Source: Paraglaciecola arctica BSs20135 (lineage in GTDB: Bacteria > Pseudomonadota > Gammaproteobacteria > Enterobacterales > Alteromonadaceae). From it: a stretch of 64,000 nt of DNA. Location of the stretch: assembly GCF_000314995.1 (NCBI RefSeq), contig NZ_BAEO01000012.1, positions 1 through 64,000 on the forward strand, given 5' to 3'. Every line of letters starts with the position of its first letter. The first letter of the stretch is position 1. A program made the translations under genes and the position numbers. Shown here piece after piece: positions 11,478-19,810 of this stretch. A model generated the notes under the pieces. It was not told the DNA's origin. It worked only from the letters and a program-made list of their open reading frames with translations, and ran no database searches.

Positions 11478-11885
11478 TCAACTATACTTCGCATCAATCT
11501 TCTTCAACGACCGCAAAAACAACCCCAATCCGCCCACAGCTAATACCAAAATAACTATCAGCTCAAAAGTTGTCATAGTGCGCAGGTTAAATCTTACCGA
11601 TGAAATGACACCAAAGATTAGGGCGGTGATTGAACCTAGGGTTAACAGCCAACCTAAAATGTTTTTAGCGTTAAAAAAGACTAACCCTATTCCAAAAATA
11701 AAAGGGATCATGATCATGCCACCAGTGACACCAAAATTATTACCAAAACCAAATAGCCTTGAACCAAGGCCGAAGTTGGACGAGACAGTGATGGAATTAA
11801 GTAGCAGATAAAAACCGCCACACATCATAATCACACCAATAAAAAACTGACCAATACCACCTGAACTTCCGCCTGCACCATTCAT
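11478..11885 (-). CDS. Small membrane protein at end of flotillin/ATPase operon
   Basis: A 135-residue protein with about four hydrophobic segments (FFIGVIMMCGGFYLLL, GGMIMIPFIFGIGLVFF, ILGWLLTLGSITALIFGVIS, ELIVILVLAVGGLGLFL) and a Gly/Ser-rich start (MNGAGGSSGGIGQF). I recognise no family. It starts 59 bp after the giant ATPase gene on the same strand with no terminator in between, so it is probably the last gene of that operon and may be an inner-membrane partner of the SPFH/ATPase proteins. Confidence 0.75.
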   Translation of the reverse strand: MNGAGGSSGGIGQFFIGVIMMCGGFYLLLNSITVSSNFGLGSRLFGFGNNFGVTGGMIMIPFIFGIGLVFFNAKNILGWLLTLGSITALIFGVISSVRFNLRTMTTFELIVILVLAVGGLGLFLRSLKKIDAKYS

Positions 11886-11944
11886 ATCTATTACCTTTCT
11901 AAGCTGTTTTCGCTACTGTGGCTAATTAAACGATGATTTTCAAA

Positions 11945-14900
11945 TTACTTTTTCTTCTTAAAATCGTCTTCTGTCGCACCTGACCATACTTTACTCAATA
12001 GATGCATAGCGGTGGCCACTCGGTTGATGGGTTTAATTAAGTCTGTGGTATCCGACTGCTGCATATCGAGTTTTATCGCTTCGAGTGAATTGGATATTTG
12101 ACCCAATTGTTGCACCGCTTGGGTGGTGGGGTCGCCTTCAATGTCTAGGCTTTTTTTACTGCTAAAGGCACTACAAATATGATGCCAACGGGCGGTTTTT
12201 TCATCATCCATTACACCCCGTAATATGGCTAGTTTAAGTAAATTTTCTTCGGCACCTGAGGTGAGGGTTTGCGCTTCACCTGTGTAGTGGTCGCTGATTA
12301 ATTGCATGAGTTCGTCATGATTCATTACAGCTGAGATTTTCTCTGCCATTTTGTTCATATTGCGGTAACTACCTTGCAATTTGAAGGGAGGCTCTTCGCG
12401 GTAATCTTCTGCGGTGGCGGCTGATCTTATATATTCGAGGTTAACTTTGAGGATCACATCTTGAATGGCGGTTAAGTGTTTCAATACACTAGTGATCTCA
12501 TTGACTTCAGCGCCGCTGTATTGATGACTCAAGTCGCTACTACTGTTATCGCCGCTTTGTGCCATGGCCACTAATTTATAGACATCTTGCATGTCACGCA
12601 GAGCCAATGGCGCTAACACTGGATTAGAGGTGAGGGCATTTTCAATATAACTCAGCGCGAACTGCTCTTCTTTACCGCCTAACACGTCACCTAAGTTATA
12701 AATATCGGCACGGTTGGCTAACATGTCGGGCACTTTAAACACATCACCAGATTCGGTGTACGGGTTACCCGCCATCACCACGCAGAATTTTTTGCCACGC
12801 ATATCATAGGTTTTGGCTTGGCCTTTCCAGACACCTTCAATACGTCTGGTGCCATCACACAATGAGATAAACTTTTGCAAAAACTCTGGGTGGGTATGTT
12901 GAATATCATCTAAATACAACATCACGTTACTGCCCATTTCTAGGCCAAGATTGAGTTTTTCGAGCTCCTGGCGAGCGGTAGCATTTGGCGCGTTTTCAGG
13001 ATCGATAGACGTCACATCGTGTCCGAGCGACGGGCAGTTTATTTTCATAAACACTAAACCTAAACGGTCGGCCACGTATTCCATCAAGGTGGTTTTTCCG
13101 TAACCCGGTGGCGAAATTAGTAATAACAGCCCCATTAAATCGGTACGTTTATTTTCACCTATGGTGCCCATTTGTTTGGCGAGGTTGTCACCAATAATAG
13201 GCAAATAAACTTCGTTGATTAAACGGTTTCGGACAAAAGAACTAAGGGGCTTGGCTTTGTAAGAGTCTAGTTGTAATTCCTTTTTGCTGGCTTGCATTTC
13301 ATGCTGGCGTAACTGGTGATAACGATGAAAGTTCGCCACATGTTGATTATGATATTGGTTAAGTCGTTCACTGTATTCATCCAGCGCAATATTTAGCTGA
13401 CTGTCCACAATGTTTTTATGATCACTAAGCAAACCTTCCACCGTAATATTAAGATCGACTTTACTGGGTCTAACACTTAGTTTGCCTTGGCATATAAGTA
13501 AAGCCGCAGTCTCTGGTAAATAGTGACTTAATTGTGCTTTATCGCTATCGCCTAAAGTGGCCGCTAGCCAAGCGTTAGTTAAACTCCATTGTTCTTCTAA
13601 GCCTGCAATATTGGCTTGTTTAGGTTCGGCTTGTTCAAGCAATTGATTAAACTGCGCCATAGCGCCTTGGAATTCATGTAAATGCCCCAGCGTGTCTAGC
13701 TGTTTAGTAAAGCCTTCAGACAAACTTTTAGCCGATTGGCTACTGATAAATGCCAATTTGGGCTGGGCCAATTCTGCACTTAAATAATCAGTACTTTGGA
13801 CTATTTCATGCTCTTCAAACCTTAGTGAAAATTGCTGACAAAAAGCCTGAATTTTTAGTTTTAATGTATGCTGTAATTGTTCAAATCCACTGCGGCTATT
13901 AAATGATGTTGCCAATAGTTGTGCACTAAAGGCATGGCTTTGCCAAATTTTTTGTTGAGTTTTTTCTCGGCTCGCGAAGGTCCAAAATAACATCGCCAAA
14001 GCCCTAGACTTAGGAGAGTAACGCAACAAATCCGCTTTTTGATGCACAGGTAATATAGCCTGCAATAGTTTGACTGTGTCTGCGTCATGTACGCCTTTTT
14101 CGTAACCTTCTTGATAACGTTCGGCCATATAATGACGCACTAACTGCTGCAGGGCTTTGGGGTCATCAACCAATTCATACAAAGCGTGAATTGATTGACC
14201 ATTTTGCTGTAACTCACCATCACGAATAATCAAAGATGCTAAATATTCGACTCGGCTCACATCACTATTTTCAGATACTAAGGCTTGTTGCCAATAGGGT
14301 TTAAGGTCATTTAGTTCCTGATTATCTAGCTGTTCAAAATAGTCAGTACCCACTAAGTGGCGATATAGGCCATCGTCACGGGGCAGTAAAGTTAAATCTA
14401 GGTTTTGAGAATTGACGCTAAATTTATGCCTGCCCAACTTAATAACCGCGCCGCCATCTTCAAAAATATCCTGCTTATCTCGAAGGCTACGAATACCTTG
14501 TTCTTTGGCCGCTTTTAATTGCGCTTCTAAATCATCCGCTTTAACCGGGTCGTTCAGTTCGCGCAACTGCGCCACTAAATCAGCAATTTTCTTCACCATA
14601 GGATCGGAAGCAAAGTAGGTATTTAGCTGGTCTGCATCTTTAAAAGAATTGGCACGCCTACCCACACCTTTTAAAATTCTCTGTGCTGCAGAAAACAAGT
14701 TTTGCGAACGACGTTGTTGGTCTTCAAGCAGGCTTTGTTTGCGGCTTTCAAATACGCTGTGTAATTCTTCCCGCTTATCCATAATATCGCTGAGGAACTG
14801 GTCGTACTCACTGAATTTAGACTCTAATTCTTCTAACTGGATCATCAATCTGGATAACTGCTCATCGGCTTTTTCTGGCGTATCTACCATAGCAATCGCA

Positions 14901-17011
14901 CTATTAATGCTTTGGGAAAACAACCTAAACTGTGCTGCAAATTCAGCGGTGGATTCGCCTGAACCTAACTCTTTACGGCGTTTTTTACCCTTAGCTTTAA
15001 CTTGATTGAGTTTGGCATAGATCTCTGAGATATCATCGAGGATTTTGGTTCTGATGGTGGCATCATCCACTTTTAATCCATTGAGGATCTCGGTCAATAA
15101 ATCTAAGCCAATAGATAGGTTATCCAGCTCTTCGATAAGGGGCTTGATTGCCACGACTAAATCTACTTGAGACAAACTATTTTCTAAGGTGATAATTTTG
15201 TCATGGTAAGGCTGCAGTGCTTTGTCAGCGGATAAAAAGTCTACTGTGGCACTGCTGACTATTTCAAACTGTTCAGTTACTTGAGTATCTAATTCAGCAA
15301 TACGTTCTCTGTTGATATAACGCTGCTCTTTGAGCGTGATCAAATGCCCACGTTGTTGTCGTAGCGCTGTTAAACATTCAACAAATTGCTCAGGTGATTG
15401 CCAGTCGCTTATTTTAATTGTGGCTAAAACATCCGTTTGTTTTTGTTCGGCTTGGGCTAACGCTTTGTCTGCCTGTAAACGGATTTGTTCGACTTTAACA
15501 AACTCGTCTATCACCAATTCCGCAGTAGCGGTTATCTGTTTGACTACTTCTCCTAAACCGTCCACTTCTGGCTCAGCTAGCCAGTAATAACTGTCGAACA
15601 TAGTGCGGCAGGTCTTAATCAGGTCTTCATATAAATTACGGCTGGGATTAGGGTTTGCCACACTGCGGTTAATCGCAATTAAGTCTGAAATCCCGCGCAC
15701 TAACTCTTTATTGCCAATACGACTAAAAAAGCTATCAGTGGTGGGTTGTTTTGCGGCATGTTCTTGACTGAAATAGGGGGTTTCCCAGACTTGCATGGGG
15801 TGTACACGGGTTGCTTCATCTTCGGCGACAAACACCACCATAGTGCCGTTTTCAAACACACTATAACCGTGGGCATAAATGGGATTTTGTAATTCTTTAC
15901 GGATAAGATTGTAAGAATACAACCCAATCAATCCCGACTCTGGCTCATAAAATACATAGAGTACATCTTCACCATTAGGCGAACTGACTGTACGCTTAAA
16001 TTGCAAACCTTGTATTTCATCTGGGAAGGATTTGCTTTCACCATTTTGTAGGTAATAACCACCTGGGAAAATGATGCCGTGATCTTCAGGTAAAGATACA
16101 CAAGCCAAACCAATAGCATCGATACGATTAACTTGATTGGTGCGGGTATTAAATACCAAAAAGCGATACTGCTTTTCTCGATACGGCTGAATTTTTAATA
16201 ATATCAAGCTGCCTATTTGCGCATATTGCACGTCCGCATCGGCTAGACTTTGAGTTTGATCTTCTACCGATTCATTGTAGATACCCAAACCATCTTCGGT
16301 ATTGTTTTCAACCTTAATAGTCAGCTGGCCACTTATGGTTTCAACAAACACCTGATCGAGAATGTTAATGTGTGGATGTTGACCCGTCTCGTGGGTTTCA
16401 CGCCCAGCTTTTTGCCATTCAAAATCGTGTGAAGCGGCAACTTTGATCGTTCTTTCGCCACGATTGTCGATGTAACTAGCCGACCCATCTTTATTGACTC
16501 GCCATTGAAATACCCGAGTGTCTTCGATTTTTCGGCCAATCTGAAAAACCGCAAACAGGGTTTGGTTTTGTACTTTTAGCTGAATTAAACGGGCTTCTTT
16601 GTAATAGACATACAACTCATTAAATTCTTTAACAAAGGTACTATCAGCTAAAAAACTACCGGCTAAATCTTGTGCTTCTAATTCAAAACCAGAATCGTGC
16701 TGTTTGAGCTTATATAAGGCAAACACATCTTGGACTTTGGTTTCTTTTTTCAGCCCAATAAAAACGTTGTAACCAAATAAAATATTATCGCCCACAGGCA
16801 CAATATCTCTGGCCACGCAGTTATTTTCAGTGCGCACTCGCACGCGGCTAAGCACATCAAGTTTGGCTTGACCGAACTCTTCTATACGCGCCTGATTAAG
16901 GCTTTCGACTTTTTGTTTAAGCTTAGACGCTTGCTCGGTTAAACGGGCGCGAATGACTTCATAGGCGCCGCCTTCGGCTACTGCTTGATCAACTTGGCTT
17001 TGATCAGTCAT
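11945..17011 (-). CDS. Giant DUF3686/AAA-type ATPase (annotated elsewhere as DNA repair ATPase)
   Basis: A 1688-residue protein. The N-terminal several hundred residues match the DUF3686 type (RARLTEQASKLKQKVESLNQ, DNILFGYNVFIGLKKET). A long coiled-coil region follows, about residues 490-830. A AAA+ module with Walker A SPPGYGKTTLM (near 1300) and Walker B NVMLYLDDIQHT (near 1365) lies towards the C-terminus, with a sensor-like VVMAGNPY segment after it. The protein has no membrane segment. Databases label the family as DNA repair ATPase on slim grounds; its position after a YqiJ-like and a YqiK-like flotillin gene points instead to a membrane-associated role (inference). A terminator-like hairpin between it and the flotillin gene suggests lower or conditional expression. 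Confidence 0.85.
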   Translation of the reverse strand: MTDQSQVDQAVAEGGAYEVIRARLTEQASKLKQKVESLNQARIEEFGQAKLDVLSRVRVRTENNCVARDIVPVGDNILFGYNVFIGLKKETKVQDVFALYKLKQHDSGFELEAQDLAGSFLADSTFVKEFNELYVYYKEARLIQLKVQNQTLFAVFQIGRKIEDTRVFQWRVNKDGSASYIDNRGERTIKVAASHDFEWQKAGRETHETGQHPHINILDQVFVETISGQLTIKVENNTEDGLGIYNESVEDQTQSLADADVQYAQIGSLILLKIQPYREKQYRFLVFNTRTNQVNRIDAIGLACVSLPEDHGIIFPGGYYLQNGESKSFPDEIQGLQFKRTVSSPNGEDVLYVFYEPESGLIGLYSYNLIRKELQNPIYAHGYSVFENGTMVVFVAEDEATRVHPMQVWETPYFSQEHAAKQPTTDSFFSRIGNKELVRGISDLIAINRSVANPNPSRNLYEDLIKTCRTMFDSYYWLAEPEVDGLGEVVKQITATAELVIDEFVKVEQIRLQADKALAQAEQKQTDVLATIKISDWQSPEQFVECLTALRQQRGHLITLKEQRYINRERIAELDTQVTEQFEIVSSATVDFLSADKALQPYHDKIITLENSLSQVDLVVAIKPLIEELDNLSIGLDLLTEILNGLKVDDATIRTKILDDISEIYAKLNQVKAKGKKRRKELGSGESTAEFAAQFRLFSQSINSAIAMVDTPEKADEQLSRLMIQLEELESKFSEYDQFLSDIMDKREELHSVFESRKQSLLEDQQRRSQNLFSAAQRILKGVGRRANSFKDADQLNTYFASDPMVKKIADLVAQLRELNDPVKADDLEAQLKAAKEQGIRSLRDKQDIFEDGGAVIKLGRHKFSVNSQNLDLTLLPRDDGLYRHLVGTDYFEQLDNQELNDLKPYWQQALVSENSDVSRVEYLASLIIRDGELQQNGQSIHALYELVDDPKALQQLVRHYMAERYQEGYEKGVHDADTVKLLQAILPVHQKADLLRYSPKSRALAMLFWTFASREKTQQKIWQSHAFSAQLLATSFNSRSGFEQLQHTLKLKIQAFCQQFSLRFEEHEIVQSTDYLSAELAQPKLAFISSQSAKSLSEGFTKQLDTLGHLHEFQGAMAQFNQLLEQAEPKQANIAGLEEQWSLTNAWLAATLGDSDKAQLSHYLPETAALLICQGKLSVRPSKVDLNITVEGLLSDHKNIVDSQLNIALDEYSERLNQYHNQHVANFHRYHQLRQHEMQASKKELQLDSYKAKPLSSFVRNRLINEVYLPIIGDNLAKQMGTIGENKRTDLMGLLLLISPPGYGKTTLMEYVADRLGLVFMKINCPSLGHDVTSIDPENAPNATARQELEKLNLGLEMGSNVMLYLDDIQHTHPEFLQKFISLCDGTRRIEGVWKGQAKTYDMRGKKFCVVMAGNPYTESGDVFKVPDMLANRADIYNLGDVLGGKEEQFALSYIENALTSNPVLAPLALRDMQDVYKLVAMAQSGDNSSSDLSHQYSGAEVNEITSVLKHLTAIQDVILKVNLEYIRSAATAEDYREEPPFKLQGSYRNMNKMAEKISAVMNHDELMQLISDHYTGEAQTLTSGAEENLLKLAILRGVMDDEKTARWHHICSAFSSKKSLDIEGDPTTQAVQQLGQISNSLEAIKLDMQQSDTTDLIKPINRVATAMHLLSKVWSGATEDDFKKKK

Positions 17012-17060
17012 CGTTTGGCCTGCATAGCTTGTTCTTTCATAGAAAATACTCCCAGCTAAT

Positions 17061-17085
17061 TAAAAGGGGCAGTTCATCACTGCCC
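17061..17085 (-). terminator. Intercistronic terminator between flotillin and ATPase genes
   Basis: On the minus strand GGGCAGT and ACTGCCC (7-bp perfect stem, 5-nt loop) are followed by CTTTTAATT. It lies 12 bp after the flotillin stop and 50 bp before the ATPase start, so it would reduce, not necessarily block, read-through. Confidence 0.7.
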
Positions 17086-17097
17086 ATGTATTCTTTA

Positions 17098-19119
17098 TTA
17101 GCTTGAGGATTTGTCTGTCTTAGTTCCCTGACTAGTTAAAGCTTTAGTCACTAAATCCATAATTTGTGGGTTATCACCTCCTTCTTTGAGGAATTTTGCC
17201 ACTAACGCCGTGATAGCAGTGTCTTTAGCGTTGCCACTGGCACCACCAAATCCGGCGATAAGTTCTTTAGCATCTTCTACAAAGCTGGCATCACCATTAA
17301 AGTGATCAGCGAAGGCCGTTTGTAATGTTTGACTCTTGCCAATGGTGCCATCAATAGCTTTACCCACAGACAGAGATTTAACAAAACTGTCTAGGTAGCT
17401 GGTGTCCCCACCTACAATATCAATGTTGGCTTCTTTAAGGGCTTCAGAAAGCACTAAGGCTTGCTGTTTAGCAATTTCAACATTAGTGGTAATTGATTCC
17501 ATGTTTTGCTCATGATGTTTGTCTAAGCGCATTCTAAATTCTTCGTGAGCGCGTTGTTGTTCAGACATAGTTGCCATGGCTTCGAATTTTTTGGTCATGC
17601 CTTCTGCTTCGGCCGCGGCTTTCTTGGCCATCACTTCAGCTTCCGCTACACCGGTTTTCTCAACTGCATCAGCCATCGCTTCTTGTACCCGCACATCCGC
17701 CATGCCTTCTTGTTCTTTAGCAATGGCTTTTGCTTCCATCACCTTAGCTTCTGCAAGGCCTGAAGCCGCAGCAAGTGCTTCATTACCTTCTGCTTCTTTA
17801 CGTTGTGATAAGGCTAGTTTTTCCGCTACTTCTAAGTCTGCAGCAGCAATAGTGACTTTTTCTTTAGCCAAATATTCACTAGATTTTTCAGCAGCTTCTG
17901 CCGCTTTAATATCTTTAACCAAGGCTTCTTCAGCGTCTGCTTCTGCAGCTATCACTTTTGATTTTCTTAAACGTTCAGCTTCTGAAATCACCCTTACGTC
18001 GTTGATTTCTTCTTCTTTCTCAGCCACGGTTTTATCAACTTCAACACGGCTACGAATGACATCTGCAATTTCGCGTTTTTCGTGTTCGAGTAATTTTTCG
18101 TTAGCAATACGTTGTAAAGATGCTTCTTTTTCACGCTCGATTTGTTCTAACTCTCGCGCCTTAATCACACGTTCTTCTTCAATGGCAACCGCACGCAAAC
18201 GGTTGTTTTGAGCCACTTCCACTTCGCGCTGTTTGTTTTGTTCTTGTACTTCAATTTCTTGCTCGGCTTGCACTCTTGCTTGCTCGGCCTTGAGTTTTTC
18301 TTCGTGTTGTACCCTTTCTGTTTCGGCTGTTTCTCTGGCGATAACGGTTTGTACTTCACGCTGTTGTTTGGCTTCCGCGTCGGCTTGCTGACGCTCAAGT
18401 TCTAAAATGGCTTCTCGTGTTTCAACGTCTTTACGTTTAATTTTCATCTCTTCGTCACGCTGGAACACATTGGTTTGAATATGTTGCTCGGCGGTCAGTT
18501 GAGTGATTTTACGAATACCTTGGGAGTCCAAAATGTTATTGGGATCTAGCTTTTCAAGGGGAGTTTGTTCAAGGTAATCAATAGCCACATCTTCGAGCAC
18601 ATAACCGTTAAGGTCGGTACCTATGTTGTCGATAATCATATCTCGGAATTTGTCACGCTTAGCGTATAACTCTTCAAACTCAAGAGATTTACCGACGGTT
18701 TTTAATGCTTCTGAGAATTTTGCACTGAACAAATCTTCTAGTGTTTTAATATTTGATGCACGTTCGCAACCAATAGCTTGGGCCACTTTCATTACGTCAT
18801 CACGGTTTTTATTCACCTTAACAAAAAAACCAACTTTGATATCCGCACGAATATTATCGTTGCAGATTAATCCATCAGAACCACTTCTATCTACTTCAAT
18901 GGTTTTTAGGGAAATATCCATAAGTTCCATTTTATGGAATACGGGGATCACCACACCACCGGTAAAAGTAACTACAGGTTCGTTACCCATTTTATTGATG
19001 ATCATGGCGTGGCCTTGCTCAACCTTTTTGTATAGGCGAGCCAGCATTAAGATAACCCCCATCACTAGGACAAAAATACCTACTGCAAGAGAAATCCAAA
19101 AAATTACAACTTCATTCAT
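17098..19119 (-). CDS. Flotillin-like SPFH protein (YqiK type)
   Basis: A 673-residue protein with an N-terminal membrane anchor (residues about 5-27, IFWISLAVGIFVLVMGVILM). The SPFH/PHB domain runs from about 28 to 210 (QGHAMIINKMGNEPVVTFTG, DNIRADIKVGFFVKV, FEELYAKRDKFRDMI). It is followed by about 350 residues of heptad-rich Glu/Ala/Lys coiled coil and a flexible C-terminus. This is the layout of bacterial flotillins such as E. coli YqiK, which oligomerise in membrane microdomains. A YqiJ-like gene lies 58 bp upstream, the usual partner, and the DUF3686 ATPase 86 bp downstream. Terminator-like hairpins flank it on both sides. Confidence 0.92.
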   Translation of the reverse strand: MNEVVIFWISLAVGIFVLVMGVILMLARLYKKVEQGHAMIINKMGNEPVVTFTGGVVIPVFHKMELMDISLKTIEVDRSGSDGLICNDNIRADIKVGFFVKVNKNRDDVMKVAQAIGCERASNIKTLEDLFSAKFSEALKTVGKSLEFEELYAKRDKFRDMIIDNIGTDLNGYVLEDVAIDYLEQTPLEKLDPNNILDSQGIRKITQLTAEQHIQTNVFQRDEEMKIKRKDVETREAILELERQQADAEAKQQREVQTVIARETAETERVQHEEKLKAEQARVQAEQEIEVQEQNKQREVEVAQNNRLRAVAIEEERVIKARELEQIEREKEASLQRIANEKLLEHEKREIADVIRSRVEVDKTVAEKEEEINDVRVISEAERLRKSKVIAAEADAEEALVKDIKAAEAAEKSSEYLAKEKVTIAAADLEVAEKLALSQRKEAEGNEALAAASGLAEAKVMEAKAIAKEQEGMADVRVQEAMADAVEKTGVAEAEVMAKKAAAEAEGMTKKFEAMATMSEQQRAHEEFRMRLDKHHEQNMESITTNVEIAKQQALVLSEALKEANIDIVGGDTSYLDSFVKSLSVGKAIDGTIGKSQTLQTAFADHFNGDASFVEDAKELIAGFGGASGNAKDTAITALVAKFLKEGGDNPQIMDLVTKALTSQGTKTDKSSS

Positions 19120-19148
19120 ATGTTTACTCCACTAACTACTAAATTTGG

Positions 19149-19179
19149 AAAAAAGGGGTAATACAGACCAATAGCCCCT
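19149..19179 (-). terminator. Possible terminator between YqiJ-like and flotillin genes
   Basis: On the minus strand AGGGG, overlapping the TAG stop, pairs with CCCCT across a 16-nt loop-sized gap and is followed directly by TTTTTTCC. The stem is short (5 bp), but the T-tract is good. Confidence 0.5.
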
Positions 19180-19810
19180 AAAGATGGCTTGATGACATAG
19201 CCATCACTTCGGCTTCAGAGGCAACGATATAACTATCATGCTCTGTAGAATATTCTAATAAAACAATACGACTGCCTTTACATAAATCGTTGGGGGTATT
19301 AGCTCTGACGCTATACACCATGCCATCATCGGCAGCGGCTTGCCCGAATGACTCTGTCACTGTTTGGGTGGTAACTGTGCAAATCACACCGTCTAAATCT
19401 TTCTTAGACACAGCTTCGTGGGTGTAAAATACTTTGCGTAAAGGTTTGCAGCACATAGCGGCCACTGGAATGGCAATTAAAACTGCAAAAATGGCAACGA
19501 TAAAACCAATCGCCGTTGCCGAAAGTATTCCATCGAAAAGCGGAGTCAGGTATTTGCGAGCTAAATAAGTAAACGCAAAAGCGTAAATATCAACTAAGGT
19601 CAGTGCCACTGTAAGCGGCACACCATCAAGTCCAAAGGTTTCTAACCATCCGCCGACAGTAGCATCGGTGTCATTGTCTGCATCAATATCAAATATTTCG
19701 ATATCCACTAAACCTGCAAAAGCCATTAGCCAAAACAGCATTAAAACAATCAGTGGTATGGTGAATATTAGAGTGGGAAAGCTAAATACTTCGTTTAGAA
19801 AAAGTTCCAT
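19178..19810 (-). CDS. YqiJ-like membrane protein with OB-fold tail (NfeD-type flotillin partner)
   Basis: A 210-residue protein with membrane segments at about 12-35, 60-84 and 90-118, followed by a soluble beta-rich C-terminus (DLDGVICTVTTQTVTESFGQ, GMVYSVRANTP, GSRIVLLEYSTEHDSYIV) that reads as an OB fold. This layout is that of E. coli YqiJ, an NfeD-related partner of the flotillin YqiK. It is the first gene of the operon. A sigma-70-type promoter and a palindrome lie upstream. In the family, NfeD-like proteins act with SPFH proteins in membrane organisation; a more specific task is not established. Confidence 0.8.
   Translation of the reverse strand: MELFLNEVFSFPTLIFTIPLIVLMLFWLMAFAGLVDIEIFDIDADNDTDATVGGWLETFGLDGVPLTVALTLVDIYAFAFTYLARKYLTPLFDGILSATAIGFIVAIFAVLIAIPVAAMCCKPLRKVFYTHEAVSKKDLDGVICTVTTQTVTESFGQAAADDGMVYSVRANTPNDLCKGSRIVLLEYSTEHDSYIVASEAEVMAMSSSHL

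Follow-up and report, generated by a model that had tools for sequence, protein, structure and literature searches.

A conserved yqiJ-spfh-DUF3686 gene cluster of Paraglaciecola arctica as a candidate membrane module

Gene layout

The first 64,000 nucleotides of contig NZ_BAEO01000012.1 of Paraglaciecola arctica BSs20135 (hereafter, the window; the host genome comprises 5.96 Mb in 72 contigs) carry genes for a YqiJ-related membrane protein, an SPFH/flotillin-like protein, a giant AAA+ ATPase of the DUF3686 family, and a small membrane protein. An earlier note on this DNA, made from the letters alone, had described these as four co-directed genes in this order and with short spacings, and the open reading frames (ORFs) bear this out: all four are read from the minus strand and are separated, along the operon, by 58, 86, and 59 bp. 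The features are as follows.

19178..19810, minus strand: YqiJ-related membrane protein, 210 amino acids (ORF; profile of 29 relatives against Escherichia coli YqiJ)
17098..19119, minus strand: SPFH/flotillin-like protein of the ATPase-linked group, 673 amino acids (Band_7 score, YqiK profile match, tree)
11945..17011, minus strand: DUF3686 giant AAA+ ATPase, 1688 amino acids (Pfam PF12458, E 1.9e-202)
15584..16921, minus strand: DUF3686 N-terminal domain of the ATPase, residues 31-476 (Pfam)
12212..13279, minus strand: AAA+ domain of the ATPase, about residues 1245-1600, predicted MoxR-like fold
11478..11885, minus strand: four-helix small membrane protein, 135 amino acids, optional neighbour (ORF)

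The earlier note took the system to be undescribed. This no longer holds, since the main text of Ravi et al. 2024 (mSystems, PMC11237479) reports the same three-gene core together with a PspA-containing form; the pairing is therefore not new as an operon.

Linkage of the ATPase, SPFH, and yqiJ genes

The coupling of so large an ATPase to a flotillin was the feature that the earlier note had singled out, and neighbourhood surveys confirm that the ATPase gene has an SPFH gene beside it almost without exception. We examined contigs for the best 80 of 571 confirmed ATPase relatives, a sample that therefore favours close kin. SPFH is present at 74 of these loci, 71 with the order yqiJ-spfh-ATPase and three with spfh-ATPase starting at a contig edge; the remaining six carry the ATPase alone, and four of them begin no more than 542 bp from a contig end. 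A less biased set consisted of every DUF3686 gene (28 genes) in a sample of 196 genomes of the host's family, which we assume to be one draw throughout the DUF3686, SPFH, and small-protein counts. All 28 have both spfh and, upstream of it, yqiJ; both genes also accompany 12 of 12 DUF3686 genes from other families. Among the 12 plasmid-collection records with an ATPase relative, 11 were fetched; their loci span four phyla (Gammaproteobacteria, Deinococcus, Streptomyces/Nonomuraea, and Hymenobacter) and contain spfh in 11 of 11 cases and yqiJ in 10. Linkage is thus near-constant rather than rare.

The reverse test, in which six candidates were scored per genome, found matches to the SPFH protein in 55 of the 196 family genomes. 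A close SPFH (50-100% identity across most of the protein, reported as two pieces in four genomes) occurs in 28 genomes, exactly the 28 that carry DUF3686. Distant SPFHs (26-31% identical, in frames of 579-621 amino acids) occur in 26 genomes, none with DUF3686. One further genome (G506, locus L221) holds a short SPFH remnant and no DUF3686 match; the remnant, being of the ATPase-type SPFH, suggests a past loss. Within the genus, 7 of 22 genomes carry both the ATPase and a close SPFH, and three carry a distant SPFH only, one of which (G017) gave a weak, 40-residue match to the ATPase query. Distances between loci correlate strongly for every pair of the three core proteins, ATPase, SPFH, and YqiJ (r 0.948-0.956; ATPase versus SPFH, r 0.956; 0 of 999 permutations) over 39 loci, one locus with a cut ATPase being left out and no outside gene serving as control; genes travelling together would show the same agreement.

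Joint transfer could by itself have kept these genes together, as a mobile accessory or defence cassette. Such a cassette would fit the patchy distribution (7/22 genus, 28/196 family, and 10/397 phylum-sample genomes), the 12 plasmid-collection records (several chromosome-sized, but plasmid pQBR103 also among them), and the SPFH remnant. No ATPase relative was found in viral contigs or phage records, however, PADLOC matches were weak (IetA, E 4e-4, residues 1212-1324; mad8, E 0.006), and the core gene order is conserved across phyla. We consequently set the defence reading aside on the PADLOC and viral results and regard a mobile cassette in general as improbable.

SPFH and YqiJ-related proteins

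The SPFH domain that the earlier note saw in the 673-residue protein is corroborated by a whole-genome profile search (Band_7 at 18580-19026, 46.9 bits, above the cut-off) and by the alignment of the family profile to E. coli YqiK (99.9% probability). With hmmscan, the same protein yields no Pfam family, and Flot and Band_7 each match just 2 of 31 SPFH relatives, the window protein not among them; PDB sequence searches returned no match. Set against the corresponding component of the abbreviated operon of Ravi et al., a band-7/SPFH protein that has a coiled coil and a flotillin-like C-terminus, these profile results are mixed. Because hmmscan gives no Band_7 while the genome search passes the cut-off, Pfam-based censuses may undercount this coiled-coil-rich SPFH group.

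In a tree of the SPFH region (74 rows), all 54 ATPase-linked rows, 14 of them hand-picked, fall on one side of a single branch with an SH-aLRT support of 100. The 20 unlinked rows on the other side are E. coli YqiK and 19 SPFHs from the family (drawn from 20 of the 27 genomes with an unlinked SPFH, the remnant being excluded). Linkage to the ATPase changes state once on this tree, versus a shuffled mean of 17.8. This is a quick tree with SH-aLRT values and no bootstrap, and several rows sit on long branches. We also considered the window SPFH as a YqiK orthologue; this was rejected, since E. coli YqiK falls outside the ATPase-linked group on the same quick tree.

What earns the 210-residue protein its YqiJ-like label is similarity to E. 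coli YqiJ at the profile level (hmmsearch, E 6e-8; profile of 29 relatives, hhalign 94.8%) rather than Pfam models: the window protein reaches neither the YqiJ nor the NfeD model, YqiJ_N is matched by 2 of the 29 relatives, neither of them the window protein, and a PDB search gave chance-level matches. Judged from these profiles, it appears to correspond to the YqiJ/YuaF-related membrane protein of the abbreviated operon of Ravi et al.

The giant ATPase

The Pfam search assigned residues 31-476 of the ATPase to DUF3686 (E 1.9e-202), residues 597-681 to DUF7902, and residues 1296-1419 to AAA_5, and it detected no peptidase family in the 1688 residues. The DUF3686 domain probably corresponds to the beta-propeller repeats described by Ravi et al. 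(PMC11237479). The Walker motifs noticed earlier are conserved, K1306 and D1368-D1369 being invariant in a 59-row alignment; the invariant columns also include N1416, R1434, and R1550, and we read the five as putative Walker A, Walker B, sensor 1, arginine finger, and sensor 2. In the Foldseek list, the top ten structure matches of the AAA domain are all CbbQ/NorQ, and in the model a beta hairpin (residues 531-544) precedes what we read as the sensor-1 strand. The domain is thus predicted to have the MoxR-type AAA+ fold.

Searches of PDB sequences were less informative: the full ATPase matched only Rix7 (residues 1262-1330), the C-terminal profile gave nothing beyond short stretches that stop at the P-loop, and the N-terminal profile gave no match. 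The closest named relative among the matches listed comes from Paraglaciecola arctica A3R16 (89%; L023), and no close match to a Providencia copy of the ATPase turned up in E. coli genomes. At one locus (L185, genome G022), an in-frame TGA splits the ATPase gene into frames of 89 and 1583 amino acids.

Under the label that Pfam ("ATPase involved in DNA repair") and many database records give it, this protein would be a true DNA repair or DNA-processing ATPase that only stands beside SPFH genes. RuvB does surface in the searches, as weak P-loop matches (RuvB_N in 20 of 59 relatives), but the RuvB-type similarity of the window ATPase is restricted to residues 1287-1330, and the closest folds belong to CbbQ/NorQ, which in itself is no proof of function. 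Two points led us to set this reading aside as highly unlikely: the genes that constantly accompany the ATPase encode membrane proteins, and its likeness to RuvB does not extend beyond the P-loop region. The earlier note had called the label poorly supported, and nothing in our analysis backs it.

Wider neighbourhood

Neighbours were counted with profiles built from them and matched anywhere in the examined DNA (within about 10 kb). Among the best 80 of 571 loci, PspA is found at 46, YjfI at 44, a rhomboid at 35, a PLD protein at 29, and a zinc ribbon at 11. Clustered PspA and YjfI genes lie mostly three to five genes upstream, and the 12 loci outside the family have PspA in 8 cases and YjfI in 9. 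On pQBR103, genes for YjfI, PspA, a rhomboid, DUF2491, DUF350, DUF1190, and glutathionylspermidine synthase stand directly ahead of the three core genes.

The host has three PspA genes, all away from the operon, and the CesT/Tir (YjfI)-PspA dyad of the full operon of Ravi et al., absent at the window, lies on contig C7. There, the cluster yjfI-pspA-ion channel-DUF2491-DUF350-DUF1190-glutathionylspermidine synthase (L158:7477-12613) holds one of the three PspAs. This PspA (YjfJ) scores 229.7 bits against the profile of operon PspAs, versus 11.0 for each of the other two; by these scores, only the C7 copy appears to be of the operon-resident class.

Downstream of the ATPase there is often a gene for a rhomboid-type membrane protease (26 loci, among them L028:12554-13129). 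A G[AS]SG motif is kept by 25 of 26 clustered rhomboids; a second pattern, tried for the histidine, occurs in 7 of 26. A PLD-family protein (PLDc_2) is encoded near the operon at L036:15874-16563 and 20 other loci, with an H.K...D motif in 21 of 21. Divergent Zn_ribbon_TFIIB-like genes are often placed between those for the small membrane protein and yqiJ (L129, L135, L136, L142, and L143). At one locus (L207, genome G508), yqiJ, spfh, a zinc-ribbon gene, and the small-protein gene stand together without the ATPase, and the SPFH is a distant, YqiK-like one; the accessory genes are therefore not tied to the ATPase alone.

The small membrane protein

The earlier note could not place the 135-residue protein, and it still has no Pfam match; its hydropathy profile shows four peaks. 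Its association with the operon is real but not obligatory. Of the 196 family genomes, 31 encode it; so do 7 of 369 genomes from the class, one of the 7 being the host. It coincides with DUF3686 in 16 genomes versus 4.4 expected (Fisher p 2.8e-8, kinship ignored). It lies near 13 of 28 family operons, in seven genera, either downstream or divergently upstream and often beside the zinc-ribbon gene; outside the family, it was seen downstream at one locus (L200). The four genes on each side of its relatives include no yqiJ, spfh, or ATPase in 13 of 20 regions. On these counts we rejected the idea of a fixed component, and, for lack of a Pfam match, that of a rhomboid; an anchor or channel role is a guess.

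Discussion

A scaffold-plus-energy interpretation is the natural one for the pairing of an SPFH protein with an ATPase. We consider it somewhat probable that the operon encodes a conserved three-protein membrane module comprising an SPFH scaffold, a YqiJ-like anchor or gate, and a MoxR-type remodeller, probably serving in envelope stress. The SPFH protein would build a membrane-bound scaffold or cage, which the YqiJ-like protein would anchor or gate. The giant ATPase may be in physical contact with the scaffold, acting as a dedicated MoxR-type AAA+ remodeller of the protein complexes that the scaffold collects. YjfI (CesT/Tir-type) and YjfJ-class PspA (an ESCRT-III relative), encoded in the neighbourhood in many bacteria, would be the likely clients or partners; in the host, the pair on the other contig would contribute in trans. 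The small protein would be an optional extra.

Several observations weigh against this module. Two Methyloprofundus metagenome-assembled genomes (L030 and L033) have the ATPase and no SPFH or YqiJ in the examined DNA. The plasmid-collection loci have PspA in just 2 of 11 cases and YjfI in 1 of 11, and neither was found in the fetched stretch at any of the 28 family operons, the window locus (L202) included. YjfI is present in 22 of 22 genus genomes, whether or not they have the ATPase, and it therefore gives no evidence of dependence on the latter. Finally, MoxR-type enzymes are usually partnered by VWA-domain proteins, and the Pfam search of the four operon products found no VWA domain among them.

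A sharper and attractive proposal, which we think doubtful, likens the ATPase to Vps4: it might be that protein's bacterial counterpart, a MoxR-class motor that is held on an SPFH group of its own and would disassemble or recycle YjfJ-type (ESCRT-III-like) PspA polymers at damaged membranes, with PspA supplied in trans if absent from the operon. A possible alternative, which we hold only tentatively, dispenses with PspA. Here, the ATPase would be an SPFH-caged unfoldase for membrane-protein quality control, similar to HflKC-FtsH and without a built-in protease, that extracts or refolds membrane proteins within the scaffold; the neighbouring rhomboid of some lineages may do the cutting. Rhomboids are, however, found at fewer of the best 80 of 571 loci than PspA or YjfI, the window stretch has none, and the Pfam search of the ATPase detected no peptidase family.

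The three-protein module would displace the "DNA repair" label. An ATPase paired one-to-one with an SPFH group of its own, the matching PspA being encoded elsewhere in the host, offers a concrete candidate for testing.

Known systems share parts of this arrangement. HflKC-FtsH joins an SPFH scaffold to an AAA+ partner, as the window operon does, but FtsH belongs to a different AAA class from the MoxR type and has a fused metalloprotease, whereas no peptidase family was detected in the window ATPase. Unlike CbbQ/NorQ, the window ATPase carries its AAA domain near the end of 1688 residues, preceded by an extensive N-terminal domain and then by a long stretch that is largely helical.

The closest precedent is the operon of CesT/Tir-PspA, band-7/flotillin, YqiJ/YuaF, and AAA+ proteins that Ravi et al. 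set in an envelope stress gene neighbourhood (PMC11237479). We identify its ATPase with DUF3686 by architecture and context rather than by accessions; the window ATPase has the AAA+ part. Shared are the three core genes and abbreviated forms without PspA, which may borrow it from elsewhere. In contrast, the accessible passages mention neither a one-to-one pairing of the ATPase with a separate SPFH group nor its MoxR-like fold, the four-helix small protein, or a zinc-ribbon gene next to this operon; zinc ribbons are mentioned there for the Bacillus subtilis ydj operon, and the word "rhomboid" never occurs in the main text. Our literature search, which took in few subscription papers and not the supplements of Ravi et al., found no paper naming DUF3686.

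YqiJ/YqiK pairs were described by Hinderhofer et al. 2009 (PMC2636767), in whose accessible text the word "ATPase" does not appear; nor does it in that of a 2026 paper on Pseudomonas aeruginosa SPFH proteins (PMC13086221). The E. coli pair is homologous and identically ordered, but no DUF3686 gene is annotated alongside, and YqiK is shorter (553 amino acids), matches Flot and Band_7 in Pfam, and lies outside the ATPase-linked group. In B. subtilis, the pspA-ydjGHI operon, as presented in the accessible text, names no large AAA+ ATPase, yet it has an SPFH-PspA link in common with the arrangement proposed here: the SPFH protein YdjI is needed for the placement of PspA at the membrane (PMC8581546).
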